64,000 nt of DNA from Modestobacter marinus (lineage in GTDB: Bacteria; Actinomycetota; Actinomycetes; Mycobacteriales; Geodermatophilaceae). The stretch lies in the NCBI RefSeq assembly GCF_011758655.1, contig NZ_JAAMPA010000001.1, positions 1,364,001-1,428,000 of the forward strand, read 5' to 3'. Every line of letters begins with the position of its first letter. The stretch's first letter is position 1. The position numbers and the translations under genes were made by a program. Of the stretch, positions 6,860-60,381 are shown piece by piece. Under the pieces are notes generated by a model. The model saw only the letters and a list, made by a program, of their open reading frames with translations, ran no database searches and was not told the DNA's origin.

Positions 6860-8362
6860 GTGTCAACCGAGCCGTCGCGTCGCGCCCCCTCCGGCCCGAC
6901 CCCACCCTCCCCGCCCGTCCCCGCGGCGGTGCAGCAGACGGTGCGCGAGCTCGTCGAGGTCTCCCCCGTGCTGGTCGCCCTCGGCGAGCGGTTCTCCGCC
7001 GCCGGCCACGAGGTGCACCTCGTGGGTGGCTCCGTCCGCGACGCGCTCCTGGCCGCCGGGACGGACCGGCCGCTGCCCACCGGGGACCTGGACCTGACCA
7101 CCGACGCCCGACCCGAGCAGACCCTCGAGGTGCTCCGGGGCTGGGCCAGTTCCACGTGGAACACCGGCATCGCCTTCGGCACCGTCGGCGCCGAGGTGCG
7201 CGGCGAGCGGGTGGAGATCACCACGTTCCGCGCCGACCGCTACGACCGGGAGTCCCGCAACCCGGAGGTCGCCTGGGGCACCTCGCTGGCCGAGGACCTG
7301 GCCCGGCGCGACTTCACCGTCAACGCGATGGCGGTCTCGCTGGGCCCCGACCGCACGGTCACCGACCCCTTCGGTGGGCTGGGCGACCTGCTGGCGCGGC
7401 GGCTGCGCACCCCCGGCCGGGCGGTGGACTCCTTCGCCGACGACCCGCTGCGGATGCTGCGCGCCGTCCGCTTCGTCGCCCAGCTGCAGCTCGTCCCGGA
7501 CCCCGAGGTCGTCGAGGCGATGACGTCGCTGGCCACCGAGCTGGGCCGGATCACCCCGGAGCGGGTGCAGCACGAGTTCTCCCGCACGTTGCTCAACGAC
7601 TCCCCCAGCGAGGCGCTGGACCTGTTCGTCTCCACCGGGCTGGCCGACGTCGTCCTCCCGGAGCTGTCGGCGCTGCGGATGGAGATCGACGAGCACCACC
7701 AGCACAAGGACGTCTACGTCCACTCGCTGACCGTGCTGGACCAGGCGATCGCGCTGGAGCAGGCCGACCCGGAGGCGCCGTCGCCGGACCTGGTGCTGCG
7801 ACTGGCGGCGCTGCTGCACGACGTCGGCAAGCCGGCCACCCGCCGGCACGAGCCGCGCGGCCGGGTCTCCTTCCACCACCACGAGGTGGTCGGCGCCAAG
7901 CTGGTGCGCAAGCGGCTGCTGGCGCTGAAGTACCCCAAGGACGTCGTCGAGGCGGTCTCCCGGCTGACCTTCCTGCACCTGCGCTTCCACGGGTACGGCC
8001 GCGGGGAGTGGACCGACTCCGCCGTCCGCCGGTACGTCACCGACGCCGGTGACCTGCTGCCCCGGCTGCACAAGCTGGTCCGCTCCGACTGCACCACCCG
8101 CAACCGCAAGCGGGCGGCGGCCCTGTCGGCGACATACGACTCGCTGGAGCAGCGGATCAGCGAGCTGTCGGAGCGGGAGGACCTCGCCCGGGTGCGGCCG
8201 GACCTGGACGGGAACCGGATCATGGAGCTGCTGGAGATCCCGCCGGGCCGCGAGGTGGGCGAGGCCTGGCGGTTCCTCAAGGACCTGCGGCTGGAGCGGG
8301 GGCCGCTGGAGCCGGACGAGGCCGAGGCCGAGCTGCTCGCCTGGTGGCGCGCCCGCGGCTGA
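6860..8362 (+). CDS. pcnA: CCA tRNA nucleotidyltransferase
   Basis: A template-independent polymerase that adds or repairs the 3'-CCA end of tRNAs. The 500-residue product has the class II head motif LVGGSVRDALL, the metal-binding pair in GDLDLTT, the family segment RRDFTVNAMA and, in the C-terminal half, an HD phosphohydrolase motif (LLHDVGKPATR). The GTG at 6860 is chosen because the frame is open far upstream but this codon clears the divergent NUDIX gene. The order pcnA/NUDIX/DUF6049/mviN is the mycobacterial one, where this gene is named pcnA. A perfect parS-like 14-mer lies inside the gene at 7149-7162. Confidence 0.93.
   Translation: MSTEPSRRAPSGPTPPSPPVPAAVQQTVRELVEVSPVLVALGERFSAAGHEVHLVGGSVRDALLAAGTDRPLPTGDLDLTTDARPEQTLEVLRGWASSTWNTGIAFGTVGAEVRGERVEITTFRADRYDRESRNPEVAWGTSLAEDLARRDFTVNAMAVSLGPDRTVTDPFGGLGDLLARRLRTPGRAVDSFADDPLRMLRAVRFVAQLQLVPDPEVVEAMTSLATELGRITPERVQHEFSRTLLNDSPSEALDLFVSTGLADVVLPELSALRMEIDEHHQHKDVYVHSLTVLDQAIALEQADPEAPSPDLVLRLAALLHDVGKPATRRHEPRGRVSFHHHEVVGAKLVRKRLLALKYPKDVVEAVSRLTFLHLRFHGYGRGEWTDSAVRRYVTDAGDLLPRLHKLVRSDCTTRNRKRAAALSATYDSLEQRISELSEREDLARVRPDLDGNRIMELLEIPPGREVGEAWRFLKDLRLERGPLEPDEAEAELLAWWRARG
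7149..7162. other. Candidate parS site (perfect)
   Basis: The palindrome GTTCCACGTGGAAC, inside pcnA, flanked by A on each side. It has the form of the ParB site TGTTTCACGTGAAACA with a symmetrical T-to-C/A-to-G change, a variant known in Pseudomonas. It is one of three identical copies in the window. Confidence 0.7.
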
Positions 8363-8378
8363 GGCCGGCCGGCACCCC

Positions 8379-9701
8379 TCAGGTCAGCGACACCCGCAGG
8401 GCGAGCGGGGCGTCGTCGGTGCGCCGGGCCTCGGCGCGGGCCCAGCGGGAGAACAGCACGGCGGTGACCAGGTAGCCGGCTGCGACCCCGACCAGCAGCG
8501 GCCAGCTCACCCCCGACGCCGGCATCAGGAACGCCCCGGCCAGCAACGCCACCACGAAGGTCACGTTGAACAGGGTGTCGTAGACGGAGAAGACCCGGCC
8601 GCGGAAGTCGTCGTCCACCGCCTCCTGCAGCGTGGTGTCGACACAGATCTTGATGCCCTGGGCGACGAACCCCAGGGTGAGGACGGCGGCCACGATCGAC
8701 GGCGGCCGGAACATCCCGCCCAGCACCAGCTGGCCGGTGCCGCCGAGCACCAGCAGCCCGACGATCCAGGCCGCCTTGCCCCACCGGCGCACCGCCCACG
8801 GCGTCACCGCCGCCGCGAGCAGGGTGCCGGCCGCGCCGGCGGCGAGGACCTCGCCCAGCCCGGCCAGCCCGCCGCGGAAGAGCCCGGTCACGTCGGTGAA
8901 GGTGTTGCGGTACAGCAGCAGCGTCATCAGCGTCAGCAGGCCGTACATCAGCCGGTGCACCGCCATCACCGACAGGATGGCCGTCGCCGGCGGGTGCGCC
9001 AGCATGTGCCGGGCGCCGGCCACCATCCCGTGCAGCACGTCACGGGCGCTGACCGTGGCGGCCAGGGTCAGGTGGTCGGGGCCGAGGTGACCGCGCGGGA
9101 AGCGGGAGACGACCGCGGAGGCCACCAGGTAGGGCACCGCCGAGCCCAGGGCCAGGCCCGCGTACCCGCCGCTCCCGGAGCCGAACAGCGCCGTCGCGCC
9201 GATGGCGACCCCGCCGCCCAGCACGGCGGCCACCGCACCGGACGTCGTGGACAGCGCGTTCGCCGAGACCAGCGAGGGCGCGTCCGTGGTGTGCGGCAGC
9301 GCTGCGGAGAGCGCGGACAGGACGAAGCGGTTGACCGAGAAGACCAGCAGGCCGGCGACGTAGAACGCCGTCCCCTGGATCCCGGCCAGGACCAGGGCCG
9401 CGACCACCACGACGAGGACCGCGCGGACGACGTTGGCGACCAGCAGCACCTGCCGGCGGCTCCAGCGGTCCAGCCAGACGCCGGCGAACGGGCCGACCAG
9501 CGAGTACGGCAGCAGCAGGACGGCGAACCCGGCGGCGACGTCGATCGGGTCCGCCGCCTGCTGGGGGTTGAACAGCACGGTGCCGGCCAGGGCGGCCTGG
9601 AAGACGCCGTCGCCGAACTGCGAGGACAGCCGGGTGGCCAGCAACCGGCGGAAGTCACCGCGCAGCAGGAGGTGACGCACGGTCGTGGGCGCCTGCTGCA
9701 T
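8379..9701 (-). CDS. MFS transporter
   Basis: A major facilitator superfamily permease of about 440 residues with roughly twelve hydrophobic segments. The cytoplasmic loop 2-3 reads GVWLDRWSRRQVLL, the usual MFS signature position. The substrate is unknown; the mycobacterial counterpart, Rv0037c, also sits divergent from a yqgE gene. The ATG at 9701 is preferred over the in-frame GTG at 9731 because the N-terminus MQQAPTTVRHLL leads directly into the first helix; no strong ribosome binding site separates the two. It converges on pcnA with 16 bases between the stops. Confidence 0.85.
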   Translation of the reverse strand: MQQAPTTVRHLLLRGDFRRLLATRLSSQFGDGVFQAALAGTVLFNPQQAADPIDVAAGFAVLLLPYSLVGPFAGVWLDRWSRRQVLLVANVVRAVLVVVVAALVLAGIQGTAFYVAGLLVFSVNRFVLSALSAALPHTTDAPSLVSANALSTTSGAVAAVLGGGVAIGATALFGSGSGGYAGLALGSAVPYLVASAVVSRFPRGHLGPDHLTLAATVSARDVLHGMVAGARHMLAHPPATAILSVMAVHRLMYGLLTLMTLLLYRNTFTDVTGLFRGGLAGLGEVLAAGAAGTLLAAAVTPWAVRRWGKAAWIVGLLVLGGTGQLVLGGMFRPPSIVAAVLTLGFVAQGIKICVDTTLQEAVDDDFRGRVFSVYDTLFNVTFVVALLAGAFLMPASGVSWPLLVGVAAGYLVTAVLFSRWARAEARRTDDAPLALRVSLT

Positions 9702-9809
9702 CCCAGCCACACTACGTCGCCCGCGGTCCACAGGCAGCCGACGGCGGGAGGTCAGGAGGCGGGCGGACGAGCCGCCCCTCCGGCCGGTCCCTGATGCACA
9801 CTGGAGGCG

Positions 9810-10481
9810 ATGAACCCGGTGCCGTCGTCACCCGATCCCGAGCGTCGCCCCACAGCCGGCCAGGCTGCGGGGCGGGGCAGGCGTACCGGCATCCCGGCGC
9901 TGTCGGTCGGCTCGCTGGACGACGTCCGGCCGGGTTGCCTGCTGGTCGCCATGCCGTCCCTGACCGACCCGACCTTCGCCGGCGCGGTCGTCTATGTCCT
10001 GGACCACTCCGACACCGGCACCATCGGCGTCGTGCTCGGGCGGCCCAGCGAGGTCCGGATCGGCGACGTCCTGCCGGGCTGGTCGGAGCTGGCCGTCGAA
10101 CCGGGCGTCTTCCACGTGGGCGGGCCGTGCGAGGCCGACACCGCCCTGTGCCTGGCCACCCGTCGGGGCAGCGAGCCCCTGCCGGAGGACAGCGGCCTCC
10201 GCGAGGTCGCCGGGGCGGTCCACCTGGTCGACCTGGACAGCGACCCGGCCGAGCTGGAGGGCGAGATCGGCGGCCTGCGGGTGTTCGCCGGCTACGCCGG
10301 CTGGTCGGCGGGGCAGCTGGCCGGTGAGGTCGCCGAGGGCGCCTGGGCCTGCGTCGCCGGCATCCCGGCTGACGTGCTGACCGGCGCCTCCGGGCCGGAG
10401 CTGTGGCGGTCGGTGCTGCGCCGCCAGTCCGGCCGGCTGGCGGTGCTCTCCACCGCCACGGCGGACCCCTCCGCGAACTGA
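9810..10481 (+). CDS. YqgE/AlgH family protein (UPF0301)
   Basis: A 223-residue protein of the YqgE/AlgH family with unknown biochemical role. After about 35 variable residues comes the conserved body, with PGCLLVAMPSLTDPTFAGAV, TIGVVLGRPSE and VFHVGGPCE in family order, and then FAGYAGWSAGQL, the typical C-terminal signature. It begins at ATG 9810 with GGAGG only two bases upstream, an unusually tight spacing. It is divergent from the MFS gene, as in mycobacteria (Rv0038), and followed by a bidirectional hairpin. Confidence 0.9.
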   Translation: MNPVPSSPDPERRPTAGQAAGRGRRTGIPALSVGSLDDVRPGCLLVAMPSLTDPTFAGAVVYVLDHSDTGTIGVVLGRPSEVRIGDVLPGWSELAVEPGVFHVGGPCEADTALCLATRRGSEPLPEDSGLREVAGAVHLVDLDSDPAELEGEIGGLRVFAGYAGWSAGQLAGEVAEGAWACVAGIPADVLTGASGPELWRSVLRRQSGRLAVLSTATADPSAN

Positions 10482-10550
10482 GGCGGCACCGGGCCGGCGT
10501 GCCCGCGTGTCGACTCCCGGTGGCGGTCACGACCTGGTAGGAATGACCCC

Positions 10551-10591
10551 GCAGGAGGGGGCGACCTGGGGAAGAGGCCGCCCCCTCCTGC
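10551..10591. terminator. Bidirectional hairpin terminator
   Basis: A perfect 13-base stem (GCAGGAGGGGGCG pairs with CGCCCCCTCCTGC) with a 15-base loop, lying between the convergent yqgE and lipoprotein genes. T-rich sequence (TCTGTCTCC) follows on the plus strand. Confidence 0.75.
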
Positions 10592-10623
10592 TCTGTCTCC
10601 AGCCCCTGTCCCCAGCCCGCCGG

Positions 10624-11388
10624 TCACAGGCCCAGGGCGGCGGCGATCTCCGGGTGCTCCGTGAGGCTCACCGTGTCGCTGTCGGCCGGGAGCGTGATGT
10701 CCCGCTCGCCGTGGTCGGCCAGGGTGATGGTGATGGGGACGTCCTGCAGCGTGGTCGCGTACTGCACCAGCAGCTGGCTGTCCGCGGCCACGGCGATCGT
10801 CGTCCCGGTGGGGTTCTGGAAGACCGAGGACAGCTCCCCGTTGATCGACCGGCTGCCCGCCCAGGTGTAGCCGGCGAAGGACGCCGGGTCGTCCGCCGTC
10901 GGTGCGGCGAGCTTGGGCACCATCTGGACCAGCACGTCCAGCAGCGAGGCGGTGCCGCCGGCCTGCGTGGTGGCGATCGGCCGGCGCACGTAGGTGGCGT
11001 CCGGGAGCCCGGCCTGCTCGAGCGCCTCGGTCAGCCCGGGGACGTCGCCCTGCCACAGGTCCTCGGCGGTGAAGAAGAGGGTGCGGGTGTCCTCGGGGCG
11101 CCCGTCGGCGTAGCTGGTGACCGCCTGCGCCCGACCGATCCCCTCGGCGAAGTCGATCTCGCCGGTGAGGGTGAGGACGGCGCCCTCGGCGTAGGGGGCG
11201 GTCACCTCGAAGTCGGCGCCGCCCTCCTCGTGGTCGGCCCGGAGGACCTGGCCGAGGACCTCGGCCTCCGCCGAGCTCACCGGGTCGCCGGGGACGCGCG
11301 GGGCGGTCTCGTCGTCCCCGCACCCGGCCAGCAGGGTCAGCGCCACCAGCAGGGACGGCACGAGCAGTGGCGGGCGACGCGGTGGCAT
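10624..11388 (-). CDS. Putative lipoprotein, unknown function
   Basis: A 254-residue exported protein with a clear lipoprotein signal: a hydrophobic segment followed by the lipobox LLAGC at about residues 19-23, then an acidic linker. The mature part has no motif I recognise; it contains a repeated beta-rich pattern (VLTLTGEIDF, ITITLADHGER) that could fit an LppX/LprG-like or YcnI-like fold, but this is a guess. ATG 11388 is the only start giving the signal peptide. It lies downstream of ino1 on the same strand, separated by a hairpin, so it is probably transcribed independently. Confidence 0.75.
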   Translation of the reverse strand: MPPRRPPLLVPSLLVALTLLAGCGDDETAPRVPGDPVSSAEAEVLGQVLRADHEEGGADFEVTAPYAEGAVLTLTGEIDFAEGIGRAQAVTSYADGRPEDTRTLFFTAEDLWQGDVPGLTEALEQAGLPDATYVRRPIATTQAGGTASLLDVLVQMVPKLAAPTADDPASFAGYTWAGSRSINGELSSVFQNPTGTTIAVAADSQLLVQYATTLQDVPITITLADHGERDITLPADSDTVSLTEHPEIAAALGL

Positions 11389-11427
11389 GCCCCAACACTA
11401 GGAGCCGGTGCGGGCCCGGGATGCGGA

Positions 11428-11459
11428 ACGGCCCGCACCCCGAGGGGGGTGCGGGCCGT
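11428..11459 (-). terminator. Hairpin after ino1
   Basis: A perfect 14-base stem (ACGGCCCGCACCCC with GGGGTGCGGGCCGT) and a four-base loop, starting 16 bases beyond the ino1 stop codon. No U-tract follows, as is common for high-GC actinobacterial terminators. Confidence 0.7.
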
Positions 11460-11474
11460 CCGGTGCTGCTGAGT

Positions 11475-12554: not shown

Positions 12555-12649
12555 GGACTGACTCCCTCCGACGGACCCGACCCGGGTCCGGACTGTGTGC
12601 GGTTCGTGCGGTGCAGTGGTTCCGGTGGTGCAGTTCAGGGGGGCGACGC

Positions 12650-13249
12650 TCAGCTGGTGGCGTCGTCCGGGGGGTTCCGGGCGGCCTCGGCTCGCGCGTT
12701 GTCGTCGCGCTCGCTGTCGATGAGCTCGGTGAGCCAGCGGACCTCGCGGTCGACGGAGTCCAGGCCGTGCCGCTGCAGCTCGAGGGTGTAGCGGTCGAGC
12801 TTCTCCTGGGTGCGGCGCAGCGAGTCCATGAGCCGGTCGCGCTGGCGCTCGACGGTGCGCCGGCGGCCCTCCAGGATGCGCAGCCGCACGTCGGCGGCGG
12901 TGTGCCGGAAGAAGGCGAGGTGGACGCCGAAGCGGCCCTCGTCGTCGTAGGCCTCGGGGCCGGTCTGGCTGACCAGGTCGGCGAAGCGCTCCTTGCCCTC
13001 GGCGGTGATCGCGTAGACGACCTTGCCGCGCCGGCCGGTGAGCGCGGGGGCGTCGGCGGGCAGCAGCGACCGCGGGGTCGGGTCGTCGCTGGCGATCAGG
13101 CCGGCGGCCTGCAGGCGCTTGAGGGCCGGGTAGAGCGAGCCGTAGGAGATCGACCGGAGCCCCCCGAGGACGGCGGCCAGCTCCTTGCGCAGCTCGTAAC
13201 CGTGCATCGGCGACTGCTGCAGCAGCCCCAGGATGGCGAACTCGAGCAC
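12650..13249 (-). CDS. PadR family transcriptional regulator
   Basis: A 199-residue regulator with an N-terminal winged helix ([20 protein letters not shown], then [19 protein letters not shown]) and a C-terminal coiled-coil dimerisation region (about 120-185), the PadR layout. The GTG start at 13249 has AGGAGGT seven bases upstream. It probably binds the palindrome just upstream of its own start and may also control ino1 or ponA; target genes are inferred from position only. The mycobacterial homologue at this place is Rv0047c. Confidence 0.9.
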
Positions 13250-13285
13250 GGCGCCACCTCCTGGTCTGCCGGCGTTCACCGGATC

Positions 13286-22941: not shown

Positions 22942-22955
22942 GCTCCACGTGAAAC
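22942..22955. other. parS-like variant overlapping a start codon
   Basis: GCTCCACGTGAAAC has a perfect right half of the parS consensus (CACGTGAAAC) and a weaker left half. The GTG at 22949-22951 inside it is the likely start codon of the HNH lipoprotein gene. Confidence 0.35.
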
Positions 22956-23845
22956 ACCGCATGACCGCGCTCGCTGCGCTGGCCCTGGTCGGCACCGCAG
23001 CCTGCGCGCCGGCCGGCGCACCACCGGCCACCCCGGGCGCGGACGCCGTCTCCGAAGCCGCCCAGCAGTCGACGTCCGGCGCCCCCACGGCTGGGCAGCC
23101 GGCCACCGACGTGCTGGCCACCCTGCCGGTCAAGGGCCGCGCGCCGAAGACCGGCTACGACCGGAACGAGTTCGGCGCCACCTGGGCCGACGTCGACCGC
23201 AACGGCTGCGACACCCGCAACGACGTGCTGGCCCGCGACCTCACCGGAGAGCAGTTCCGGCCCGGCACGCAGGACTGCGTGGTGGTCAGCGGCACGCTGG
23301 TCGACCCCTACACCGGCCAGACCATCGAGTTCCAGAAGGGCGACGCCAGCAGCGTCGACATCGACCACGTCGTCGCGCTGAGCAACGGCTGGCAGACCGG
23401 GGCCTTCGGCTGGGACGAGGACCGGCGCACCGCGTTCGCCAACGACCCGCTGAACCTGCTGGCCGTCGACTACGCCGCCAACCGGCAGAAGGGTGACGGC
23501 GACGCCGCGACCTGGCTGCCGGACGACCGCGGGTACCGCTGCGCCTACGTCGCCCGCCAGGTCGCGGTGAAGGCCGGCTACGGCCTGTGGGTCACCCAGG
23601 CCGAGCACGACGCCATCGCCCGCGTGCTCGACACCTGCCCCGGCGAGCCGGTCCCGTCACCGGCCGCACCCACTCCGGACGGTTCCGCGGAACCGCCCGC
23701 CGACGGTCCCGCGGAACCGCCGGCCGCCGACCCGTTCCCGAACTGCGAGGCGGCCCGCGCGGCCGGCGCCGCGCCGCTGCACCGCGGTGACCCGGGCTGG
23801 TCCGACCGGATGGACGGCGACGGGGACGGCACCGCCTGCGAGTGA
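22949..23845 (+). CDS. Secreted HNH (DUF1524-type) nuclease with Excalibur domain
   Basis: A 298-residue exported protein. An N-terminal signal ends in GTAACAP, a weak lipobox. The central part carries a GmrSD/DUF1524-like HNH motif: DIDHVVALSNGW, then NDPLNLLAVDYAANRQKGD, where the DH pair, the first Asn and the N-R-K segment are the expected catalytic residues. After a Pro-rich linker the last 36 residues form an Excalibur calcium-binding domain (FPNCEAARAAG, then DGDGDGTACE). This looks like an extracellular nuclease, possibly for DNA turnover or competition. The start could also be the ATG four codons later. Confidence 0.85.
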   Translation: MKHRMTALAALALVGTAACAPAGAPPATPGADAVSEAAQQSTSGAPTAGQPATDVLATLPVKGRAPKTGYDRNEFGATWADVDRNGCDTRNDVLARDLTGEQFRPGTQDCVVVSGTLVDPYTGQTIEFQKGDASSVDIDHVVALSNGWQTGAFGWDEDRRTAFANDPLNLLAVDYAANRQKGDGDAATWLPDDRGYRCAYVARQVAVKAGYGLWVTQAEHDAIARVLDTCPGEPVPSPAAPTPDGSAEPPADGPAEPPAADPFPNCEAARAAGAAPLHRGDPGWSDRMDGDGDGTACE

Positions 23846-35758: not shown

Positions 35759-36205
35759 GTGACCGATGCACCTGCGCTGCGCGAGGCGGCCTTCGCCGAG
35801 CTGACCCCGGCCGAGCTCTACGGCATCCTGCGCCTGCGGGTCGACGTCTTCGTGGTGGAGCAGGCCTGCCCGTACCCGGAGCTGGACGGCCGGGACGCCG
35901 AGCCGACCACCGTGCACCTCTGGCACGAGTCCGACGACGGCACCGTGCTCGCCACGATCCGGGTGCTGACCAACGGCGAGGACCGGTCGATCGGCCGGGT
36001 CGCGACCGCGGAGCACGCCCGGGGTCGCGGGCTGTCGGCCCAGCTCATCGCGCGCGGCATCGAGCTGTGCGCGGGGCGCACGATCGACATCGGCGCTCAG
36101 GCCTACCTGGAGGCCTGGTACGAGCGCTTCGGCTTCCGGCGCTCGGGGCCGGACTACGTCGAGGACGGCATCCCGCACCTGCCGATGCGACGGGCCGCCG
36201 GCTAG
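35759..36205 (+). CDS. GNAT acetyltransferase, ElaA type
   Basis: A 148-residue GNAT enzyme that would transfer acetyl from acetyl-CoA to an amine. The ElaA signature is clear: ELYGILRLRVDVFVVEQACP at the N-terminus, then the CoA loop ATAEHARGRGLSAQLI and the C-terminal AYLEAWYERFGFRRSG. The substrate is unknown. GTG 35759 is in frame with an earlier open frame, and is favoured because it matches the family length. Its stop TAG overlaps the stop of the convergent helicase gene in the palindrome CTAG. Confidence 0.88.
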   Translation: MTDAPALREAAFAELTPAELYGILRLRVDVFVVEQACPYPELDGRDAEPTTVHLWHESDDGTVLATIRVLTNGEDRSIGRVATAEHARGRGLSAQLIARGIELCAGRTIDIGAQAYLEAWYERFGFRRSGPDYVEDGIPHLPMRRAAG

Positions 36206-38001
36206 TCCGAACCGGTCAGGGAGATCGCGGGCAGCCAGTCGGCGTCGAGCAGCTCGGCGATCTGCTGCAGCCCGGCGGTGTCGCCACCGGCGGTCGAGCC
36301 GGTGACCGCCAGCCGCTCCACCATCACCCGCGCGACGTCCTCCTCCACGGTTTCCTGCGCGAACGCGAACGCGACCCGCCACGGCGAGACCTGGTGGTCG
36401 CGGTGCGTGCGGCCCGTGACCTGCCGGGCGGCGATCCCGGAGAACCGCGGCTGGTGGAACAGCCCGACCCGGGGCGTGGTCGACGCGGTGCGCCCGCCGG
36501 GCAGCACCTCCCCGGCGTGCAGGCTGATCGAGGCGGTCACGGTGAAGACGCACACCGGCGCCTCCCCGGTCTGGAAGCGCAGCCGCTCGGCCTCGACGTC
36601 GAAACGGTCCCGGCCGTAGATCGAGGCGACGGCCACCCCGCCGTCCAGCAGGGCCTCCCGGATCGGGTCGGCCGCGGTCTCGACGAACTCGACCGACACC
36701 GCCACTTGCCGGTCGGCCTCGACCTGGGCCTTCACCCAGTCGACGGTGGCCTGCGCCCGGATCAGCCCGGCCTTCTGCCGGAACCGCAGCAGCGCGGCCC
36801 GGCCGCGGGCGGTCTCGCGCTTCCGCCGGGCGAGCTGCATCTCCGCGCGGAACTCCGACCACTCCGCCTCGTACTGGGCCCGCTCGGCCGGGGTCAGCTC
36901 GACCGGGGTGCCGGTGACCGACACCGGCCCCCAGGGGGCGGGGCGGTGCAGCGTGGCCGGCGGCTCGGTGTCGGCCAGCCAGCTCCGCAGCCGGGCCAGG
37001 TCGGCCCGGCGCTCCTCGGCGTCCTCGGTCCAGCTCCAGCCGTAGCGGGCACGTTCCACGTGGAACCCGTGCGCCGCGAGCCGGCCGGGGAGGTCGGTCC
37101 AGTCCTTGAGCGGCTCGCCGTGCACGGCGGCGAAGTGCGGGGCGAGGTAGGGCAGCTCCAGTGGGGTGTGCGCCGGGGTCGCGGTGGCCAGCAGCACGTA
37201 GGGCGCGTCCTTGACCCGGCCGGCGCCGGACACCGAACGCCAGTGCTTCCACCGCTGCGTGGTGGTGTGCCGGACCATGTGCGCCTCGTCGGCGACGACG
37301 ACGTCGAACCGCTGCCCGGTGGCCTTCGTGAGCCCGGCGACCTTGCCCAGCCGGTCCCAGGTGGTCACGCACCAGCGCAGCCCGCTGTCGCCGAAGGCCG
37401 CGATCGACCTCGCCCAGTGCGGCACGGTGATCGCCGCCGGCCGGTCGGCGACCACGAGCACGGTGCGGACCGGTCGCCGGGCTGCGATCCGGCCGACCGC
37501 CAGGACGGCGGTGCCCGTCTTGCCCACGCCCGGGTCGTCGCCGAGCAGGAACATCCGCCCGCCGGCCGCCTCGTGCGCCGCGATGACCGCTGCCCCGGTG
37601 ACCTGCTCCGGCCGCGGTGACATCGGCCGGCCCGCCGGCACCGGGCGCGGCTCGGCGTTCAGCTCGTCCTCGAGGAACCGCTCCAGGCTGTACGGCGGTG
37701 GGTCGTAGGGCGCCAGCGCCGCGGGGAGGGTGGCGCCCACGTACACGTGGGCGGACAGGCCGGCGTGCCAGCTGGCCCCCGGCGCCGGCGCGCGGAACGG
37801 GACGGCGAGCACCCAGACCCGTTCCCCCGGACCGGCGACCGGCAGCTCGGCGCCGGCCTTCGGCGCGGCCCGCTTCGGAGCGGCCTTCGTGGCGGTGGCC
37901 CTCTTCGGAGCTGCCTTCGCCGGAGCCTTGCGGGTCGCCGTCGTGGTCGTGCGGGCGGTGCTGCGGGTCGAGCTGGAGGAGCGCCGTCGGCGTCCGGGCA
38001 C
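36202..38001 (-). CDS. SNF2/DEAD-type helicase with histone-H1-like N-terminal tail
   Basis: A 599-residue helicase-like ATPase. Residues 1-45 are Lys/Ala/Pro-rich with short repeats (KAPAKAAPK, ATKAAPKRAAPK), like the tails of histone-H1-like bacterial DNA-binding proteins. The ATPase has Walker A GDDPGVGKTGTAV, a DEAH box in VVADEAHMVRH, motif III LLATATPAH and the C-terminal arginine-finger motif RQVTGRTHRDHQ. GTG 38001 follows AGGAG at seven bases. A perfect parS-like 14-mer lies inside the gene. No partner nuclease or methylase is next to it, so its role (repair, chromatin-like remodelling or defence) is open. Confidence 0.82.
   Translation of the reverse strand: MPGRRRRSSSSTRSTARTTTTATRKAPAKAAPKRATATKAAPKRAAPKAGAELPVAGPGERVWVLAVPFRAPAPGASWHAGLSAHVYVGATLPAALAPYDPPPYSLERFLEDELNAEPRPVPAGRPMSPRPEQVTGAAVIAAHEAAGGRMFLLGDDPGVGKTGTAVLAVGRIAARRPVRTVLVVADRPAAITVPHWARSIAAFGDSGLRWCVTTWDRLGKVAGLTKATGQRFDVVVADEAHMVRHTTTQRWKHWRSVSGAGRVKDAPYVLLATATPAHTPLELPYLAPHFAAVHGEPLKDWTDLPGRLAAHGFHVERARYGWSWTEDAEERRADLARLRSWLADTEPPATLHRPAPWGPVSVTGTPVELTPAERAQYEAEWSEFRAEMQLARRKRETARGRAALLRFRQKAGLIRAQATVDWVKAQVEADRQVAVSVEFVETAADPIREALLDGGVAVASIYGRDRFDVEAERLRFQTGEAPVCVFTVTASISLHAGEVLPGGRTASTTPRVGLFHQPRFSGIAARQVTGRTHRDHQVSPWRVAFAFAQETVEEDVARVMVERLAVTGSTAGGDTAGLQQIAELLDADWLPAISLTGSD
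37053..37066. other. Candidate parS site (perfect)
   Basis: GTTCCACGTGGAAC inside the helicase gene, flanked by C on each side. Identical to the sites at 7149 and 60368. Confidence 0.7.
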
Positions 38002-38091: not shown

Positions 38092-38934
38092 ATGACCGAG
38101 GACATCCGCCTGTCGGCCCGCACGCTCGGGGACACCGGGCCCCGCGTCGTCTTCGTGCACGGCCTGTTCGGCCAGGGCCGCAACTGGACGACGATCGCCA
38201 AGGCGCTGGCCGCCGACGGCCACCGGGTCACCCTGCTCGACCTGCCCAACCACGGGCACTCGCCGTGGACCGACCGGGTGGACTACGGCGACATGGCCGA
38301 GTACGTCGGCGCCGAGCTGGCCCTGCTGGGCGAGCCGGTGACGCTGGTCGGGCACTCGATGGGCGGCAAGGTCGCGATGCAGCTGGCGCTGCGCCGCCCC
38401 GAGCTGCTGCGCGCCCTCGTCGTCGTCGACATCGCCCCGACCGACTACCCCGAGTCCGGCGGTCGCACCGAGGACCCCGACGAGGAGGCCTCCCCGTTCG
38501 CCGCGTTCATCACCGCCATGCAGGGCATGGACCTCGATGAGCTGGAGACCCGGGAGGACGCCGACCAGGCGCTGCGCGCCGCCGTCCCGAGCACGATGGT
38601 GCGGTCGTTCCTGCTGCAGAGCCTGGTCCGGGACGGCGTCGGGGAGGGCGACGGCTGGCGCTGGCGGCTGAACCTGGAGACCCTGGCCCGCGACCTGGGC
38701 GAGCTGCGCCGCTTCCCCGACCCCCCGCCGGGAGCCAGCTACGAGGGGCCGGTGCTCTGGATCGCCGGCGCGAACTCCACCTACGTGCTGGACGACGACC
38801 GGCCGCGGATGGACGAGTTGTTCCCGACGACCCGGCTGGTGCGGGTGAAGAACGCCGGGCACTGGGTGCACTCCGAGCAGCCCGAGGTGTTCCTGGAGAC
38901 CGTGCGCCGGTTCCTGGCCCAGGTCGAGGGATGA
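38092..38934 (+). CDS. Alpha/beta hydrolase
   Basis: A 280-residue hydrolase with the oxyanion motif VFVHGLFGQGRNW, nucleophile elbow LVGHSMGGKVAMQLAL (Ser near residue 88), and the catalytic His in NAGHWVHSEQP. The family includes esterases and YbfF-like acyl-hydrolases. Start ATG 38092 is chosen from three in-frame candidates since it begins right before the conserved strand. Its stop overlaps the start of the BluB-CobT gene by four bases (ATGA), so the two are one transcript, which may hint at a role near cobamide metabolism. Confidence 0.87.
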   Translation: MTEDIRLSARTLGDTGPRVVFVHGLFGQGRNWTTIAKALAADGHRVTLLDLPNHGHSPWTDRVDYGDMAEYVGAELALLGEPVTLVGHSMGGKVAMQLALRRPELLRALVVVDIAPTDYPESGGRTEDPDEEASPFAAFITAMQGMDLDELETREDADQALRAAVPSTMVRSFLLQSLVRDGVGEGDGWRWRLNLETLARDLGELRRFPDPPPGASYEGPVLWIAGANSTYVLDDDRPRMDELFPTTRLVRVKNAGHWVHSEQPEVFLETVRRFLAQVEG

Positions 38935-40652
38935 CGTGGCCCCGGCCGGTGCCGCTGATCGGCGACGGCACCGCGGCCACCGAGCGCGCCGCCGACCCCA
39001 CCGGCTGGGCGCTCCCCGAGGCCGACCGGGCGGGGCTGTACCGGGCGGTCGAGGCCCGCCGCGACGTCCGGCGCTACCGCCCGGACCCGGTGCCCGACGA
39101 GGTGCTCACCCGGGTGCTCACCGCCGCGCACCAGGCGCCGTCGGTGGGGCACAGTCAGCCCTGGCGGTTCGTCGTCGTCCGCGACGCCGGCACCCGGGAC
39201 ACTGCCGCCGTCCTCACCGACCGGGAGCGGCTGCGCCAGGCCGCGCAGCTCGACCCGGACGCTGCGGCCCGGCTGCTGGACCTGCAGCTGGCCGGCGTGC
39301 GGGAGGCGCCGCTGGGCGTCGTCGTCTGCTGCGACCGGCGGGCGCCGGCGGCCGGGGTGCTCGGCCGGGCCACCTTCCCCGACGCCGACCTGTGGAGCTG
39401 CGCCACCGCGATCCAGAACCTGTGGCTGGCCGCCCGGGCGGAGGGCCTGGGCGTCGGCTGGGTGACCCTGTTCCGCCCCGAGGAGCTCGCTGCGCTGCTC
39501 GGCCTGCCCGACGGCGTCGTCACCCTCGGCTGGCTGTGCCTGGGCTGGCCGGACGAGCGCCCGCCGGCCCCCGGCCTGGAGCGGGCCGCGTGGTCGCGCC
39601 GGCAGCCGCTGTCCGACGTCGTCCTGCACGACCGGTGGCCGGCCGAGGACGTCGCACCTCCTCCCTCCCGCCTGCGCGCCCCCGAGCCGGCCGCGGTGGT
39701 CGCGGCCCGCGACGGCGCCGACCGGCTGCTGACCCCGCCGGGGTCGCTGGGGGTGCTGGACGGCGCGGTCGCCCGAGCCGTGGCGTTGGGCCGGGGTGAC
39801 CTGACCGGTGGTGTGCTGCTGCTCGCCGCCGCCGACCACCCGGTCACCGTGCACGGCGTCTCGGCCTACCCCCCCTCGGCCACCCGGGACGTCGTCATCG
39901 CCGCGGTCGCCGGGGTGGCGATGGGTGCCACGGCTGCCCGCGCGGCGGGGCTGGGCGTGGTCGTGGTGGACGCCGGGGTGACCGGGCCGGCGGTGCCCGG
40001 TGCGGTCGCGACCCGGCCGGCCGACGCCCGCGGCGACCTGGTGACCGGGCCGGCGATGACGGCGGCGGACACCGCGGCGCTGCTGGCGTCCGGCCGGGCG
40101 CTGGGCGCCGAGCACGGCCGGGCGGGGCTGGTCGCCCTTGGCGAGGTCGGGGTCGGCAACACCACGGTCGCCGCCGCGCTGGCCGGCGCACTGTTGCACG
40201 TGGAACCAGCCGAGCTCGCCGGGCTCGGGTCCGGGGCGGACGCGGCGATGGTCGAGCGCAAGCGGGCCGTCGTGGCCGCGGCGCTCGCCCGGGCCGGCAC
40301 CGACCTGGACCCGGTGACCGCGCTCGCCGAGCTGGGTGGCCCGGAGCTGGCGGTGCTCGCCGGGGTGGTGCTGGGGGCGGCGGAGGCTGGGGCGGTCGTC
40401 GTCCTGGACGGGTTCGCCACCGCGGTCGCCGCGCTGGTCGCCGTGCTGCTGGAGCCGGCGGCGCAATCGGCGCTGGTGGCCGGGCAGCGCAGCCGGGAAC
40501 GCGGCTGCGACGCCGTCCTCCAGGCCCTCGGCTGTGAACCGCTGCTGGACCTGCGGCTGCGCGCCGGCGAGGGGGTCGGCGCGGTGCTCGCCGGCGGGCT
40601 GCTGCTGCAGGGCCTGCGGATGCGCCGGGAGACCGCCCGCGTCGATCGCTGA
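38931..40652 (+). CDS. BluB-CobT fusion (DMB synthase and NaMN:DMB phosphoribosyltransferase)
   Basis: A 573-residue fusion making the lower ligand of cobalamin and activating it. Residues 1-235 are BluB, a flavin destructase that turns reduced FMN into 5,6-dimethylbenzimidazole (RRDVRRYRPDPVPDEVL, APSVGHSQPWRFVVV, WVTLFRPEEL). Residues 245-573 are CobT, which joins dimethylbenzimidazole to nicotinate mononucleotide; LLTPPGSLG near 265, GEVGVGNTTVAAAL near 402 and the catalytic glutamate in LRAGEGVGAVL near 546. The CobT loop has Val for Met/Ile in the usual motif, a mild change. A parS-like 13/14 match lies inside the gene. The other cobalamin genes are not in the window. Confidence 0.92.
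   Translation: MTWPRPVPLIGDGTAATERAADPTGWALPEADRAGLYRAVEARRDVRRYRPDPVPDEVLTRVLTAAHQAPSVGHSQPWRFVVVRDAGTRDTAAVLTDRERLRQAAQLDPDAAARLLDLQLAGVREAPLGVVVCCDRRAPAAGVLGRATFPDADLWSCATAIQNLWLAARAEGLGVGWVTLFRPEELAALLGLPDGVVTLGWLCLGWPDERPPAPGLERAAWSRRQPLSDVVLHDRWPAEDVAPPPSRLRAPEPAAVVAARDGADRLLTPPGSLGVLDGAVARAVALGRGDLTGGVLLLAAADHPVTVHGVSAYPPSATRDVVIAAVAGVAMGATAARAAGLGVVVVDAGVTGPAVPGAVATRPADARGDLVTGPAMTAADTAALLASGRALGAEHGRAGLVALGEVGVGNTTVAAALAGALLHVEPAELAGLGSGADAAMVERKRAVVAAALARAGTDLDPVTALAELGGPELAVLAGVVLGAAEAGAVVVLDGFATAVAALVAVLLEPAAQSALVAGQRSRERGCDAVLQALGCEPLLDLRLRAGEGVGAVLAGGLLLQGLRMRRETARVDR
40193..40206. other. parS-like site (13 of 14)
   Basis: GTTGCACGTGGAAC inside the cobT part of the fusion gene. 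One base in the left arm differs from the perfect sites. Confidence 0.45.
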
Positions 40653-52130: not shown

Positions 52131-52148
52131 ATGGTCGTACCGACCGGA

Positions 52149-54339: not shown

Positions 54340-54393
54340 GGCGCCCGACGCTAGGCCATCGCGGGCCCGGACGGTGACCCAGCGCACCTGGGT

Positions 54394-54412: not shown

Positions 54413-54499
54413 GCGGCCGTCGACGGCCCCTCGCGGACCGACCTACCGTGGGGGCATCGTGAGCCGTCGTCGGCGACGGCCCGTACCGAGGAGTTCGCA

Positions 54500-56230: not shown

Positions 56231-56243
56231 GCCCGGGCAGCTC

Positions 56244-56284
56244 GACGAGGCCGCCGTCTCCCCTCGGGAGGCGGCGGCCTCGTC
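56244..56284 (+). terminator. Terminator of glpD
   Basis: A 19-base stem with one G-U pair around a three-base loop; the outer arms are GACGAGGCCGCCG and CGGCGGCCTCGTC. It starts 14 bases after the glpD stop. Confidence 0.85.
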
Positions 56285-56318
56285 GCGTCCGGGGCGGACT
56301 GTGACCCACCTCGCCTGT

Positions 56319-56353
56319 CGATGCACGGATGTATCCAATACAGTCCTGCATCG
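56319..56353. promoter_or_regulatory. Composite operator of the TetR gene
   Basis: A 35-base symmetrical site: outer arms CGATGCA and TGCATCG, inner arms TGTAT and ATACA, equal four-base spacers and a three-base centre. It covers the promoter region and touches the start codon of the TetR gene. Confidence 0.65.
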
Positions 56354-56979
56354 TGACGGACGTCGACGTGCAGCGGCCCAAGCGCCGCCGTGAGGCGACC
56401 GTCGAGCGGCTGCTGGACGCCGCCCTGCAGACCTTCGCCGAGCAGGGCTTCGCCGCGGCCAGCGTCGAGGACATCTGCAGCCGCGGCGGGTTCACCCGCG
56501 GCGCCTTCTACTCCAGCTTCCGCACCAAGGACGAGCTGTTCGAGGCCTTGATGACCCGCGAGGTCGAGCGGGACCTGGCGCGCGTCGCCGAGCTGCTCGC
56601 CGGCCTCGCCGACGAGCCGGACCCGCTCAGCGCCGCGGTCGACCGGGTGCTGAGCGCCTTCCGCTGCGACCGCACCTGGGCCCTGGTGGTCACCGAGTAC
56701 ACGCTGCACGCCGCCCGGCACCCCGAGGCCGCCGAGGTGCTGCGCCGGCACGACGAGCAGGTCGGGAGCCGGCTCGGCGAGCTCGTCGACCGGATGGCCG
56801 CGGAGGCGGGGCTGACCTTCACCCTCCCGGCCGCCGACCTCATCGGGGCGGCCACCGCGCTGCTCAGCGGCCTCACCGTCATGTCCCTCACCGCGCAGGG
56901 CGACCTCGAGCCCCTGCGCCGCACCGCCCTGCTCTCCCTCGTCCGTGGTGCCGTGTCGCGCCCGCCGACCACCCCCTGA
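56353..56979 (+). CDS. TetR family transcriptional regulator
   Basis: A 208-residue regulator. The HTH is at about residues 15-60 (LLDAALQTFAEQGFAAASVE, then RGAFYSSFRTKDELFEALM). The C-terminal ligand domain is variable. The start is taken as GTG 56353, since the upstream ATG lies inside the operator; with a -10-like TACAGT at 56339 the transcript would begin almost at this codon, so it may be leaderless. It precedes the MmpL gene by 22 bases and very likely represses it. Confidence 0.9.
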   Translation: MTDVDVQRPKRRREATVERLLDAALQTFAEQGFAAASVEDICSRGGFTRGAFYSSFRTKDELFEALMTREVERDLARVAELLAGLADEPDPLSAAVDRVLSAFRCDRTWALVVTEYTLHAARHPEAAEVLRRHDEQVGSRLGELVDRMAAEAGLTFTLPAADLIGAATALLSGLTVMSLTAQGDLEPLRRTALLSLVRGAVSRPPTTP

Positions 56980-57001
56980 CCGGCTGAACCCAGGAGAACC
57001 G

Positions 57002-59242
57002 ATGTCCACCCTGCTCTACCGGATCGGCCGCGCGGCCTACCGCCGTCGCGGGCTCTTCTCCGTGGCCTGGCTCGCCGTGCTCGGGCTCGTCGTCACCCTC
57101 TTCCTCACCATCGGCGGGGAGTTCGACGACGAGTTCACCATCCCCGGCTCGGAGTCCCAGGCCGCGCTCGACCGGCTCGACGAGGTCTCCCCCGCGGCGG
57201 CGGGCGCCGGCGCGCAGCTGGTGTTCGTCGCCCCCGAGGGCGCCACGGTGGCCGATCCCCAGTACGCCGCCGCGATCGCCGAGACCGTGGCCGCAGCCGG
57301 TCAGGTCGACCAGGTCGCCGGCGTGCAGGACCCCTTCGCCACCCAGTCGATCAGCCCGGACGGGCGGGCGGCCCTGGCCCCGGTGCAGTACGCGGTGCCG
57401 CCGCCCGAGCTCGGGGAGAACGCGCTGGAGGACCTGCAGGCGGCCACGGCCCCGGCCGCGGACGCGGGTCTGCAGGTCGAGGTCGGCGGCGCCGCCTTCA
57501 ACACCGGTGCGGTCACCGTCGGTCCGCTGGAGCTCATCGGCGTGGTGGTCGCCGTGCTGGTCCTCGTCGTCACCTTCGGGTCGCTGCTCGCCGCCGGCAT
57601 GAACCTGCTGACCGCCCTGGTCGGGGTGGGCATCGGGCTCACCGGGCTGCTGGCGACGTCCGGCGTCATCACGCTCTCCTCGACCGCCCCGACGCTGGCG
57701 CTGATGATCGGCCTGGCGGTCGGCATCGACTACACGCTGTTCATCCTGTCCCGGCACCGCTCCCAGCTGGCCGCCGGCATGGACCCCGAGGAGTCCGCCG
57801 GGCGGGCCGCCGGCACCGCCGGCTCCGCCGTCGTCTTCGCCGGCCTGACCGTGGTCATCGCGCTCTCCGGGCTCGCCGTCGTCGGCATCCCCTTCCTCAC
57901 CGTCATGGGCCTGGGTGCCGCGGGCACCGTGCTGGTCGCCGTCCTGGTCGCGCTGACGCTGCTGCCCGCGCTGCTGGGCTTCGCCGGCGCCCGGCTCGTG
58001 CCCAAGCCCGGTTCCCGCGCCGCCCGCCGCGAGCAGGCGCTCGCCGAGCACGCCGGGACGCCGGCGCGCACCGGTGGCGCCCGCTGGGCCGCCTTCGTCA
58101 CCCGCCGGCCGGTGCTGACCGTGCTGGTCACCGTCGTCGGCCTGCTGGTGGTCGCGATCCCCGCGCTGCAGCTGCGGCTGGCCCTGCCCGACGCCAGCAC
58201 CGCCCCCGAGGAGAGCACCACCCGGCAGGCCTACGACGCGGTCAGCGAGTACTTCGGCCCCGGGGCCAACGGCCCGCTCATCGTCTTCCTCGACGGCCTG
58301 GAGCCGGCGACCGCCGAGCAGACGGCCGGCCAGGCGGCCGCCGCGATCGGCGGCACGCCGACCGGGCAGCCCGGTGAGTTCACCGGCGGGCTGGACGACG
58401 TCGCCTACGCCGTCCCGCAGGTGGTGGCCGACGGCACCGCCGCGATCGTGCAGGTGGTGCCGGAGAGCGGCCCGCAGGACGAGGCGACCACCGCGCTCGT
58501 GGCCGACCTGCGTGACCTCGGCGACGACCTGGCCGGCGACACCGGCGCCGACGTGACGGTGACCGGGCAGACCGCCGTCGCCATCGACGTCTCCGACCGG
58601 CTCGGCAACGCCCTGCTGCCGTTCACCCTGGTCGTCGTGGGCCTCGCCCTGGTCCTGCTGCTGCTGGTCTTCCGGTCCGTCCTGGTGCCGGTGAAGGCCG
58701 CGCTGGGCTTCCTGCTCTCGGTGGGCGCCTCGTTCGGTGCGGTCGTCGCGGTCTTCCAGTGGGGCTGGCTGATGGACGTCTTCGGGGTGCCGGCCACCGG
58801 CCCGGTCATCAGCTTCATGCCGATCCTGCTGATGGCGGTCCTCTTCGGCCTGGCCATGGACTACGAGGTCTTCCTCGTCTCCCGGATGCGCGAGGAGTTC
58901 GTGCACGGGGCCGAGCCGCGGGCGGCGGTGGTCGCCGGCATGCGGCACGCGTCCCGGGTGGTCGTCGCGGCCGCGCTGATCATGTTCTCGGTGTTCGGCA
59001 GCTTCGTGACCATCGAGGACGTGACCGTCAAGGCGATCGCGTTCGGCCTGGCCGTCGGCGTGCTGGTGGACGCCTTCATCGTCCGGATGACGCTGGTGCC
59101 GGCCGTGCTCGCGCTGCTGGGCCGTTCGGCCTGGTGGCTGCCGCGCTGGCTGGACCGGCTGCTGCCCGACCTGGACGTCGAGGGCGCGAAGCTGAGCCGG
59201 ACGGTCGAGGCCGAGCGCACCCCGGAGCCGGTGGGCAGCTGA
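57002..59242 (+). CDS. MmpL-type RND transporter
   Basis: A 746-residue transporter of the actinobacterial MMPL family that exports lipids or drugs using the proton gradient. Two homologous halves each start with a helix (FSVAWLAVLGLVVTLFL) and carry the Asp-Tyr pair in helix 4 and 10: GLAVGIDYTLFI and LFGLAMDYEVFLVSRMREE. Two large loops face outside. ATG 57002 has AGGAGA at six bases. It is in one operon with the TetR gene; no MmpS or polyketide gene is near, so it may be a drug-efflux type. Confidence 0.92.
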   Translation: MSTLLYRIGRAAYRRRGLFSVAWLAVLGLVVTLFLTIGGEFDDEFTIPGSESQAALDRLDEVSPAAAGAGAQLVFVAPEGATVADPQYAAAIAETVAAAGQVDQVAGVQDPFATQSISPDGRAALAPVQYAVPPPELGENALEDLQAATAPAADAGLQVEVGGAAFNTGAVTVGPLELIGVVVAVLVLVVTFGSLLAAGMNLLTALVGVGIGLTGLLATSGVITLSSTAPTLALMIGLAVGIDYTLFILSRHRSQLAAGMDPEESAGRAAGTAGSAVVFAGLTVVIALSGLAVVGIPFLTVMGLGAAGTVLVAVLVALTLLPALLGFAGARLVPKPGSRAARREQALAEHAGTPARTGGARWAAFVTRRPVLTVLVTVVGLLVVAIPALQLRLALPDASTAPEESTTRQAYDAVSEYFGPGANGPLIVFLDGLEPATAEQTAGQAAAAIGGTPTGQPGEFTGGLDDVAYAVPQVVADGTAAIVQVVPESGPQDEATTALVADLRDLGDDLAGDTGADVTVTGQTAVAIDVSDRLGNALLPFTLVVVGLALVLLLLVFRSVLVPVKAALGFLLSVGASFGAVVAVFQWGWLMDVFGVPATGPVISFMPILLMAVLFGLAMDYEVFLVSRMREEFVHGAEPRAAVVAGMRHASRVVVAAALIMFSVFGSFVTIEDVTVKAIAFGLAVGVLVDAFIVRMTLVPAVLALLGRSAWWLPRWLDRLLPDLDVEGAKLSRTVEAERTPEPVGS

Positions 59243-59275
59243 GCGGAGGGCAGGGGCGCGGGCCATGATCGGTCC

Positions 59276-60364
59276 ATGAGCGCCCCTGCCCCGGACGTCG
59301 CCGAGCTGACCCGCGAGCTGGTGCGGGTTCCGACCGTCTCCGGCGACGCGGCCGCGCAGCGGGGCCTGCTCGGCCTGGTCACCGACGCGGCGACGGAGGC
59401 GGCCCCGCACCTGCGACGCATCGAGGGCCCCGACCGCGAGCAACCGTGGACCCTGCTCACCTCGGCGACCGACCCGGCGAGGCCGCGGCTGGTCATCGCC
59501 TGCCATGTCGACACGGTCCCGGCGAGCGATCCCGGCGGGTGGTCACGCGACCCGTTCGGGGCCGACCTGGACGGCGGCCGGATCTGGGGCCGGGGCGCCT
59601 CGGACATGAAGGCGGGGGTGGCGGCGGCGGTCGCAGCGCTGGCCGTGGCGGATCTGGAGACGCCGCTCGCCCTGCTGCTCACCAGCGACGAGGAGATCGG
59701 CTCCCGGGGTGCCGCCGCCGCGGCGGGGGCGGTGGCCGACCTGTCGGTGGGCGCCGTCATCGTCCCGGAGGCGACGGGCAACCGGGTGGTCCTGGGGCAC
59801 CGCGGTGCGCTGTGGCTCGCCGTCCGGACCCGGGGCGTCGCCGCCCACGGGAGCACCCCCGAGCGCGGCCACAACGCCCTGCTGGACCTGGTCGCGGTGC
59901 TCGGCCGGGCGGACCGGGAGCTGCCGCTGACCAGTGAGCCCTTCCTGGGTGCCGAGACCTGGAACCCCGGCGTCCTGCGCGGCGGCACGGTGCCGAACGT
60001 CGTCCCCGACCGGGCGGAGGTGCTGATCGACCAGCGCACCGTGGGCACCGGCGCGCACCTCGCCGCCTGGTGGCGAGCACAGGCGGAGGTGGCGGAGGTC
60101 GACGTCCTGGTCGACCTCCCGGCAGTGCGCACGCCGGCCGACGATCCCTGGGTGGCCGGCCTGCCGGTCGAGGCGCAGGCGGCACCGGCCACCTACTTCA
60201 CCGACGCCTCCGTGCTCACCGCGGTCACCGGCGGCGCACCGGTCGTCGTGTGGGGGCCGGGCACCCCCGCGGTGATGCACGCCGTCGACGAGCACGTCGA
60301 GGTGGTGGAGGCGGAGCAGGCCGCCGCCGCGTTCGCCGCCGTCCTCGCCCGCTGGCCGCGGTGA
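59276..60364 (+). CDS. M20 family metallopeptidase (DapE/ArgE-like)
   Basis: A 362-residue two-zinc amidohydrolase. The metal ligands and base occur in order: IACHVDTVPASD, IWGRGASDMKAGVAAA, LTSDEEIGSRGA (catalytic Glu), VPEATG and the C-terminal AVMHAVDEHVEV. It is close in pattern to actinobacterial succinyl-diaminopimelate desuccinylase (DapE), but ArgE-like and other acyl-amino-acid substrates are possible; the usual lysine operon is not here. ATG 59276 has no strong Shine-Dalgarno. It ends just before a perfect parS-like palindrome. Confidence 0.88.
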   Translation: MSAPAPDVAELTRELVRVPTVSGDAAAQRGLLGLVTDAATEAAPHLRRIEGPDREQPWTLLTSATDPARPRLVIACHVDTVPASDPGGWSRDPFGADLDGGRIWGRGASDMKAGVAAAVAALAVADLETPLALLLTSDEEIGSRGAAAAAGAVADLSVGAVIVPEATGNRVVLGHRGALWLAVRTRGVAAHGSTPERGHNALLDLVAVLGRADRELPLTSEPFLGAETWNPGVLRGGTVPNVVPDRAEVLIDQRTVGTGAHLAAWWRAQAEVAEVDVLVDLPAVRTPADDPWVAGLPVEAQAAPATYFTDASVLTAVTGGAPVVVWGPGTPAVMHAVDEHVEVVEAEQAAAAFAAVLARWPR

Positions 60365-60367
60365 CCG

Positions 60368-60381
60368 GTTCCACGTGGAAC
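60368..60381. other. Candidate parS site (perfect, intergenic)
   Basis: GTTCCACGTGGAAC in the 38-base gap between the M20 peptidase and the LacI gene, flanked by G and C. Third identical copy. Confidence 0.75.

Follow-up and report, generated by a model that had tools for sequence, protein, structure and literature searches.

Chromosomes of Streptomyces carry many parS sites near oriC; the available part of PMC8743542 gives a mean of 22.8 per chromosome in 20 genomes and a bias towards the right arm. Here we describe a probable parS array in Modestobacter marinus (Geodermatophilaceae), starting from a stretch of 64,000 nucleotides that we call the window (C1:1364001-1428000 of the 5,102,893-bp genome, designated G000 and assembled in 12 contigs). 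An initial annotation had marked five parS-like sites in the window and read them as an array for loading the partition protein ParB around the replication origin. Like the Streptomyces arrays, as far as that paper describes them, the Modestobacter array combines an actinobacterial ParAB with many sites near oriC, and the Streptomyces arm bias resembles a lean of certain sites in G000. The two differ in spacing, with a mean of 5.6 kb in the Streptomyces origin island but 11 sites with the consensus GTTCCACGTGGAAC over 176 kb here, and in a conserved class of GTTGCACGTGGAAC sites around the Modestobacter core, which is not part of the Streptomyces arrays as described there.

The C-type core itself is already well known. 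It is common to the parS sites of Pseudomonas aeruginosa (TGTTCCACGTGGAACM) and Myxococcus xanthus (TGTTCCACGTGGAACG) in the text available from PMC5098823 and PMC3899335, and the annotation had noted the Pseudomonas-type change in the window sites. P. aeruginosa has 4 sites and M. xanthus a 3-kb cluster of 22, whereas the Modestobacter array is widely spread and has an outer ring of variants. Caulobacter offers another parallel with its weak parS sites 1 and 6 and its permissive zone: in the accessible text of PMC5815017 strong and weak sites lie near oriC, cost follows affinity and tolerance drops with distance. The Caulobacter sites, however, cluster about 8 kb from oriC, and the same text describes no outer ring of a fixed variant. 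P. aeruginosa ParB also binds half-parS sites, according to the accessible portions of PMC7022226 and PMC10419367, and the GTTGCACGTGGAAC sites likewise keep one full GTTCCAC half. Those half-sites are bound by hundreds genome-wide, whereas the GTTGCACGTGGAAC sites are few, origin-linked and keep all 14 bases.

The reading we favour, with a probability of roughly 70%, is an origin-centred parS array for ParB loading that is surrounded by a ring of conserved GTTGCACGTGGAAC variants, which are predicted to be weaker loading sites. At the level of sequence, the array, its location, the predicted ParAB, its conservation and its zoning are established by the comparisons below. ParB would load on the perfect sites and would also bind the variants, more weakly. 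As in other bacteria, it would then slide away from parS in the form of a cytidine triphosphate (CTP) clamp and link up with ParA, with recruitment of SMC as a probable further step; CTP-dependent sliding and SMC recruitment are general properties of ParB. This loading would serve chromosome segregation to daughter cells.

The literature searched contained no paper with the string GTTGCACGTGGAAC, and searches on imperfect or weak parS and on affinity versus oriC distance revealed no such ring in titles or abstract openings among the matches listed. ParB/parS searches for Geodermatophilaceae returned one general review; among the matches listed, none mentioned ParB.

Perfect sites and the genes at the origin

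The 14-mer GTTCCACGTGGAAC (C/C in the following) occurs 11 times in the genome, at positions 1262502, 1289235, 1301014, 1314312, 1342712, 1356547, 1371149, 1401053, 1424368, 1432672 and 1438610 of contig C1. The annotation had called this 14-mer rare, and on its reading a genome-wide count should show clustering near the origin. Both points hold: an order-3 Markov model that took the 360-kb origin region as its training sequence predicts 0.016 exact copies in 5.10 Mb, and all 11 copies are confined to C1:1262502-1438623, the 176 kb around dnaA and parAB (probability about 3e-14 for a uniform spread). The left end of the window, which had been placed near parAB and the origin, indeed lies beside the parA-upstream site, at a distance of 7.4 kb. 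We took the location of the origin from the positions of parAB and of dnaA (C1:1350454-1352265), which lies inside the cluster of perfect sites. The idea of a mycobacterial parS was dropped, since the genome is that of a Modestobacter and not of a mycobacterium.

All five window sites were found where the annotation had put them; those at 7149, 37053 and 60368 are perfect, the one at 40193 has one mismatch and the one at 22942 two. The perfect sites are 15-68 kb from the parA-upstream site, and two of them are intragenic, as had been claimed: 7149 lies in a gene for CCA tRNA nucleotidyltransferase and 37053 in a gene with a modest match to ResIII helicases (29.7 bits). The view that the window sites are part of a parS array for ParB loading near the origin is supported by these comparisons. 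It has to be amended for the two near-perfect sites, of which 40193 belongs to the separate conserved class and 22942, with its two mismatches, is a doubtful parS.

A hybrid T/C site, GTTTCACGTGGAAC, is located at 1356512. The T/T form GTTTCACGTGAAAC and a reversed control pattern both have zero matches in the whole genome, and the 360-kb origin region contains none of the 419 other palindromes that these half-site letters can form. The signal is carried by the exact copies, because at up to three mismatches the window is barely unusual (6 matches vs 2.71 expected; 5 of 100 shuffles reach 6). Nine of the 12 perfect or T/C-hybrid sites in the genome are intergenic, compared with about 89% of the 360-kb region that is called coding; gene calls, including the start of the CCA gene at 6929, are from our own codon-usage gene finder.

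The predicted parA-parB operon lies at about 1356.6-1358.8 kb, and two of the sites, one perfect and the other the hybrid, are just upstream of parA. ParB was recognized by a TIGR00180 match at C1:1358007-1358540 (206.5 bits), the single match to this family found in the genome, and the ParA-like open reading frame (ORF) immediately upstream of parB was assigned from its sequence and position. Among named ParBs, that of Modestobacter sp. VKM Ac-2977 is the most similar (98%), followed by those of other Modestobacter, Klenkia and Blastococcus. In Caulobacter numbering, transferred by our own alignment, the protein retains G170, S172, R173, N178, G201 and R204, which are contacts or parS-specificity residues according to the available text of PMC7383237; position 171 is R instead of K and position 162 is H instead of Q. 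A Noc binding site (NBS) was considered and rejected. The protein has R173 and G201 and not the Noc-type Q173 and R201, and positions 1 and 6 of the sites are G and A, as in parS; for the NBS the same part of PMC7383237 gives A and C. Together, the GTTNCACGTGNAAC palindrome, the clustering near origin genes and a parA-parB operon with parS-type ParB residues point to parS.

The array extends to relatives. Sites of the form GTTYCACGTGRAAC were present in 58 of the 59 genomes examined (our own included), with 10-13 in each of the 17 other same-genus genomes that are at least 95% complete and 5-9 in five less complete ones. Over the stretch compared, the close relative G001 matches G000 site by site and in order. 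Site 37053, which reads TTC CAC GTG GAA (FHVE) in frame, is identical in 5 genomes of 3 genera and preserves GAA, which makes up no more than 3.3% of Glu codons; in its host gene 10 of 507 in-phase windows are identical in all five genomes. The 14-mer at 7149 is the same in G001, G017 and G032 (four genomes with our own), but this conservation discriminates less because the host gene is itself well conserved (29 of 472 windows identical). Site 60368 is found at the same place in G001, with no copy at the corresponding place in G017 or G032.

Outside the family, parB is accompanied by a T/T site, at most about 10 kb away, in 65 of 71 named loci and by a C/C site in 2. In a class-wide sample of 148 genomes, in which ours was the sole member of the Geodermatophilaceae, C/C occurred in 21 (11 copies in our genome, 5 as the highest other count) and GTTGCACGTGRAAC in 14 (8 in our genome, one in each of the other 13). 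Three members of the family, G027, G029 and G031, have only two GTTTCACGTGAAAC sites each; in a tree of 32 chosen loci and our own ParB, their ParBs fall outside a well-supported C-type group (100/99), and their mutual order is not settled by this tree. R173, N178, G201 and R204, as well as K188 and T191, are present in all 12 ParBs of the C-type group, which includes L039, a locus placed by genus at which no parS was seen; M183 in the C-type comparison is also present in five other loci. S174 in place of P marks the ParBs of the family. It occurs in the 12 C-type proteins, in 3 T-type family members and in one Nocardia, while P174 is found in 73 of 74 other ParBs. Since S174 is shared with the T-type members, it is probably older than the T-to-C switch and cannot alone explain it. 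A switch of the parS consensus inside one family could be paired with the ParB changes S174, K188 and T191.

A class of asymmetric one-base variants

The variant GTTGCACGTGGAAC (G/C in the following) occurs seven times in the genome, at 908847, 1404193 (40193 in the window), 1464232, 1477254, 1486492, 1583121 and 1603779, compared with 0.022 copies expected from the order-3 Markov model. These low expectations and the clustering at the origin led us to reject chance for both classes. Genome-wide, 3 of the 21 possible single-mismatch classes occur (seven G4, two C2 and one T4), which also led us to reject a reading in which the half-site alone matters. Nine of these ten sites are within 250 kb of parA. 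Of all 20 imperfect sites with one or two mismatches, 13 are within 250 kb of parA; the reversed control has 4 of its 26 matches there (p = 7e-4). Origin linkage is also evident in G017 (single contig of 4.51 Mb), where 7/7 G/C sites are within 270 kb of parA, and in G081 (contig of 4.30 Mb), where 5/5 are within 164 kb.

G/C sites were present in 86 of 96 family genomes sampled, our own included; of the ten genomes that have none, nine are from g6, g8 or g10 and one (G006) is from our own genus. The sites at 1477254 and 1603779 are identical as 14-mers in the same 5 genomes as site 37053, again across 3 genera, and use the rare codons TTG (1.4% of Leu) and GAA. Of 242 in-phase windows in the gene around 1477254, this 14-mer alone is unchanged in every genome, and in the gene around 1603779 two of 221 windows are. 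Site 1583121 is retained in G001 and G017 and not in G032 or G081, and site 1404193 has copies at the same place in G001 and G017, the latter judged by position, as the codon alignment stops short of the site. The class is linked to the origin, and conservation applies to the whole 14-mer.

It could be argued that the perfect (and T/C) sites do all the work of a plain parS array, the G/C copies being leftovers that drift or matches that arose by chance. Decay by single mismatches is expected around any array, and the congeners G006 without a G/C site and G010 with one would fit. The excess of G/C copies over expectation, the narrow choice of single-mismatch classes and the two sites that stay unchanged in three genera despite rare codons speak against this explanation, which we consider quite improbable.

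Most G/C sites are located in genes. In four genomes 18 of 22 classified G/C sites are coding, compared with 12 of 35 C/C sites (12 of 36 with both G017 parA-upstream sites). These numbers bear on the possibility that another protein of the origin domain or a transcription factor binds the G/C sites instead of ParB. The class is distinct and asymmetric, with no G/G palindrome in G000 or in 12 genomes with full site listings, and two G/C copies in G000 are 17-20 bp upstream of a gene start, all of which would suit such a factor. However, the intragenic location of most sites speaks against it, as does the single TIGR00180 match found in the genome. At one orthologous position G017 has C/C and G081 has G/C, a swap that suggests one reader for both classes. 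Moreover, G/C is absent in all nine sampled genomes of g6, g8 and g10, and the three whose sites were viewed had only GTTTCACGTGAAAC. A separate reader is therefore highly improbable in our view.

The G/C sites of G000 lean to the arm of the window (6/7), which recalls the right-arm bias of parS in Streptomyces. G032 has no such lean (2 sites on each arm, with a further one on a different contig), and in G081 it is slight (3 and 2). A fixed orientation of the G/C sites relative to the origin was dropped as an idea; it looks polar in G000 and is mixed in G081 and G105.

Distance from parA and the proposed strength of the sites

The G/C sites tend to lie outside the C/C sites. In 10 genomes of 5 genera this holds for 41 of 50 G/C sites, and 8 of the 10 genomes have at most one exception. 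The 10 were taken from 15 genomes with sites seen; the count omits G001, G010, G021 and G063 (the last three in several contigs), G013 (partial listing) and the G/C copies on contig C10 of G032 and contig C7 of G064. T/C and G/T hybrids were omitted both here and in the coding and intergenic tests below. The lengths of G121 and G105 are estimates, which may put errors of tens of kb on distances that cross the contig junction but does not change the order of sites along either arm. In G001, 6 of 7 G/C sites are outside the C/C span. When orthologues were collapsed in four genomes, 14 G/C groups had a median distance of 120 kb from parA and 15 C/C groups one of 53 kb (p = 4e-4). This test excludes one mixed group and three C/C sites of G081.

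A simpler explanation is a compromise with coding: ParB would tolerate G4 (or C2) in one half of the site, at places where Leu or Gln, and not Phe or Glu, is required in the encoded protein, and all sites would be equal in their job, with no rule of distance. The excess of coding sites in the G/C class agrees with this, and the translations viewed at coding G/C sites read LHVE or FHVQ, the odd base being the one that allows the codon to remain Leu (TTG) or Gln (CAA). GCTCCACGTGGAAC, the C2 variant at 1217996, fits as well; it reads VLHVEH with Leu CTC, also in the copy at the orthologous place in G081. Such a compromise accounts for the mostly intragenic location of the G/C sites, though not for the four in intergenic DNA. 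These are free of coding constraint and yet lie 89-130 kb out, at distances that few intergenic C/C sites reach (n = 4 vs 23, p = 0.002). The difference in distance persists among coding sites alone (n = 18 vs 12, p = 0.0003). Orthologues were not collapsed in either test, and the tests omit the C10 copy of G032, the parA-upstream site 3912373 of G017 and three G081 C/C sites; with G017 3912373 put back the outcome is the same. We regard the coding compromise as unlikely, with more in its favour than the two rivals above.

The array with its weaker outer ring can be extended into a rule, to which we give somewhat less than even odds. Centromere strength would be encoded by distance from the origin: strong symmetric parS in roughly the innermost 100 kb and, outside it, a selected ring of weaker asymmetric GTTGCACGTGGAAC sites that is kept even in genes by means of rare codons, because full-strength sites that far out would cause mis-segregation. 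Already in the reading favoured above, strong sites would be selected for near the origin, and weaker ones tolerated or favoured farther out, since a strong distant parS is costly and disturbs segregation. This part of the argument leans on experiments in Caulobacter and on the parS competence zone of P. aeruginosa (available text of PMC5098823). In Caulobacter, as the accessible part of PMC5815017 reports, the cost of plasmid-borne parS follows affinity, with strong sites cutting viability and weak ones not, and the frequency of parS insertions declines gradually from ori.

Several observations weigh against a ring of selected weak sites. The intergenic comparison is based on just four G/C sites, and the G/C site of the window itself, 40193, is within the C/C core. 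The two classes interleave in G017 (3 of 7 G/C sites inside the C/C span) and G066 (5 of 8 inside), and in the fragmented genome G021, which is outside the 10-genome count, two G/C sites are between C/C sites on one contig. Imperfect sites are not in excess within 100 kb of parA (3 of 20 vs 3 of 26 for the reversed control). The lack of G/C sites in G006 and the single one in G010 mean that the ring is dispensable. Finally, the genome is very GC-rich, and the preference for G over A or T may be partly mutational.

The natural series of strong and one-base-altered sites, some of them orthologous and present across the family, would permit a direct test of the rule behind the number of parS sites that bacteria keep and the proper strength of each. 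It also points to selection at the DNA level that overrides codon bias within unrelated genes.

Sites and host genes in the window

Table 1. Predicted parS-type sites of the window and the genes that contain two of them (window coordinates).
Feature	Position	Strand	Context
Perfect parS GTTCCACGTGGAAC (C/C)	7149..7162		Inside CCA tRNA nucleotidyltransferase gene; 14.6 kb from parA-upstream site
CCA tRNA nucleotidyltransferase, host gene of site 7149	6929..8362	+	TIGR02692, 724.9 bits vs cut-off 438.8 (ORF 6500-8362)
Weak candidate GCTCCACGTGAAAC, two mismatches	22942..22955		5 bp upstream of predicted gene 22961-23845 (+)
Perfect parS GTTCCACGTGGAAC (C/C)	37053..37066		Inside minus-strand gene 36202-37812; 44.5 kb from parA-upstream site
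BluB-CobT fusion, host gene of site 40193	38949..40652	+	TIGR02476 BluB above cut-off, CobT-type matches below theirs (ORF 38931-40652)
Asymmetric variant GTTGCACGTGGAAC (G/C), one mismatch	40193..40206	+	Inside BluB-CobT fusion gene; TTG CAC GTG GAA = LHVE
Perfect parS GTTCCACGTGGAAC (C/C)	60368..60381		Intergenic, convergent genes on both sides

The candidate at 22942 has an orthologous copy in G001 only, and none was found in G017; conservation does not reach beyond the closest relative. The gene downstream has GmrSD_C and Excalibur domains (Pfam matches on 22967-23845) and a lipoprotein-like start, and it has no orthologue in the compared stretches of G017, G032 or G081. In P. aeruginosa, parS with two mismatches was unbound in vivo (available text of PMC5098823), which counts against this site.

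Site 60368 begins 3 bp past the stop of an M20-type gene (59276-60364) and is 21 bp from the end of a gene for a LacI-type regulator (60403-61398, minus strand). Several intergenic parS are located in this manner, 3-28 bp beyond stop codons. The one at C1:1432672, which is outside the window and 68.7 kb past its start, is 11 bp after a stop codon and within a 30-bp perfect palindrome (GGGTCCCG ... CGGGACCC); the same palindrome surrounds parS in G001 (C2:288909). These positions suggest that parS and terminator hairpins may overlap.

The host gene of site 40193 has Pfam matches to Nitroreductase and DBI_PRT, both above cut-off, and joins dimethylbenzimidazole synthase (BluB) and a phosphoribosyltransferase (CobT) in one gene.

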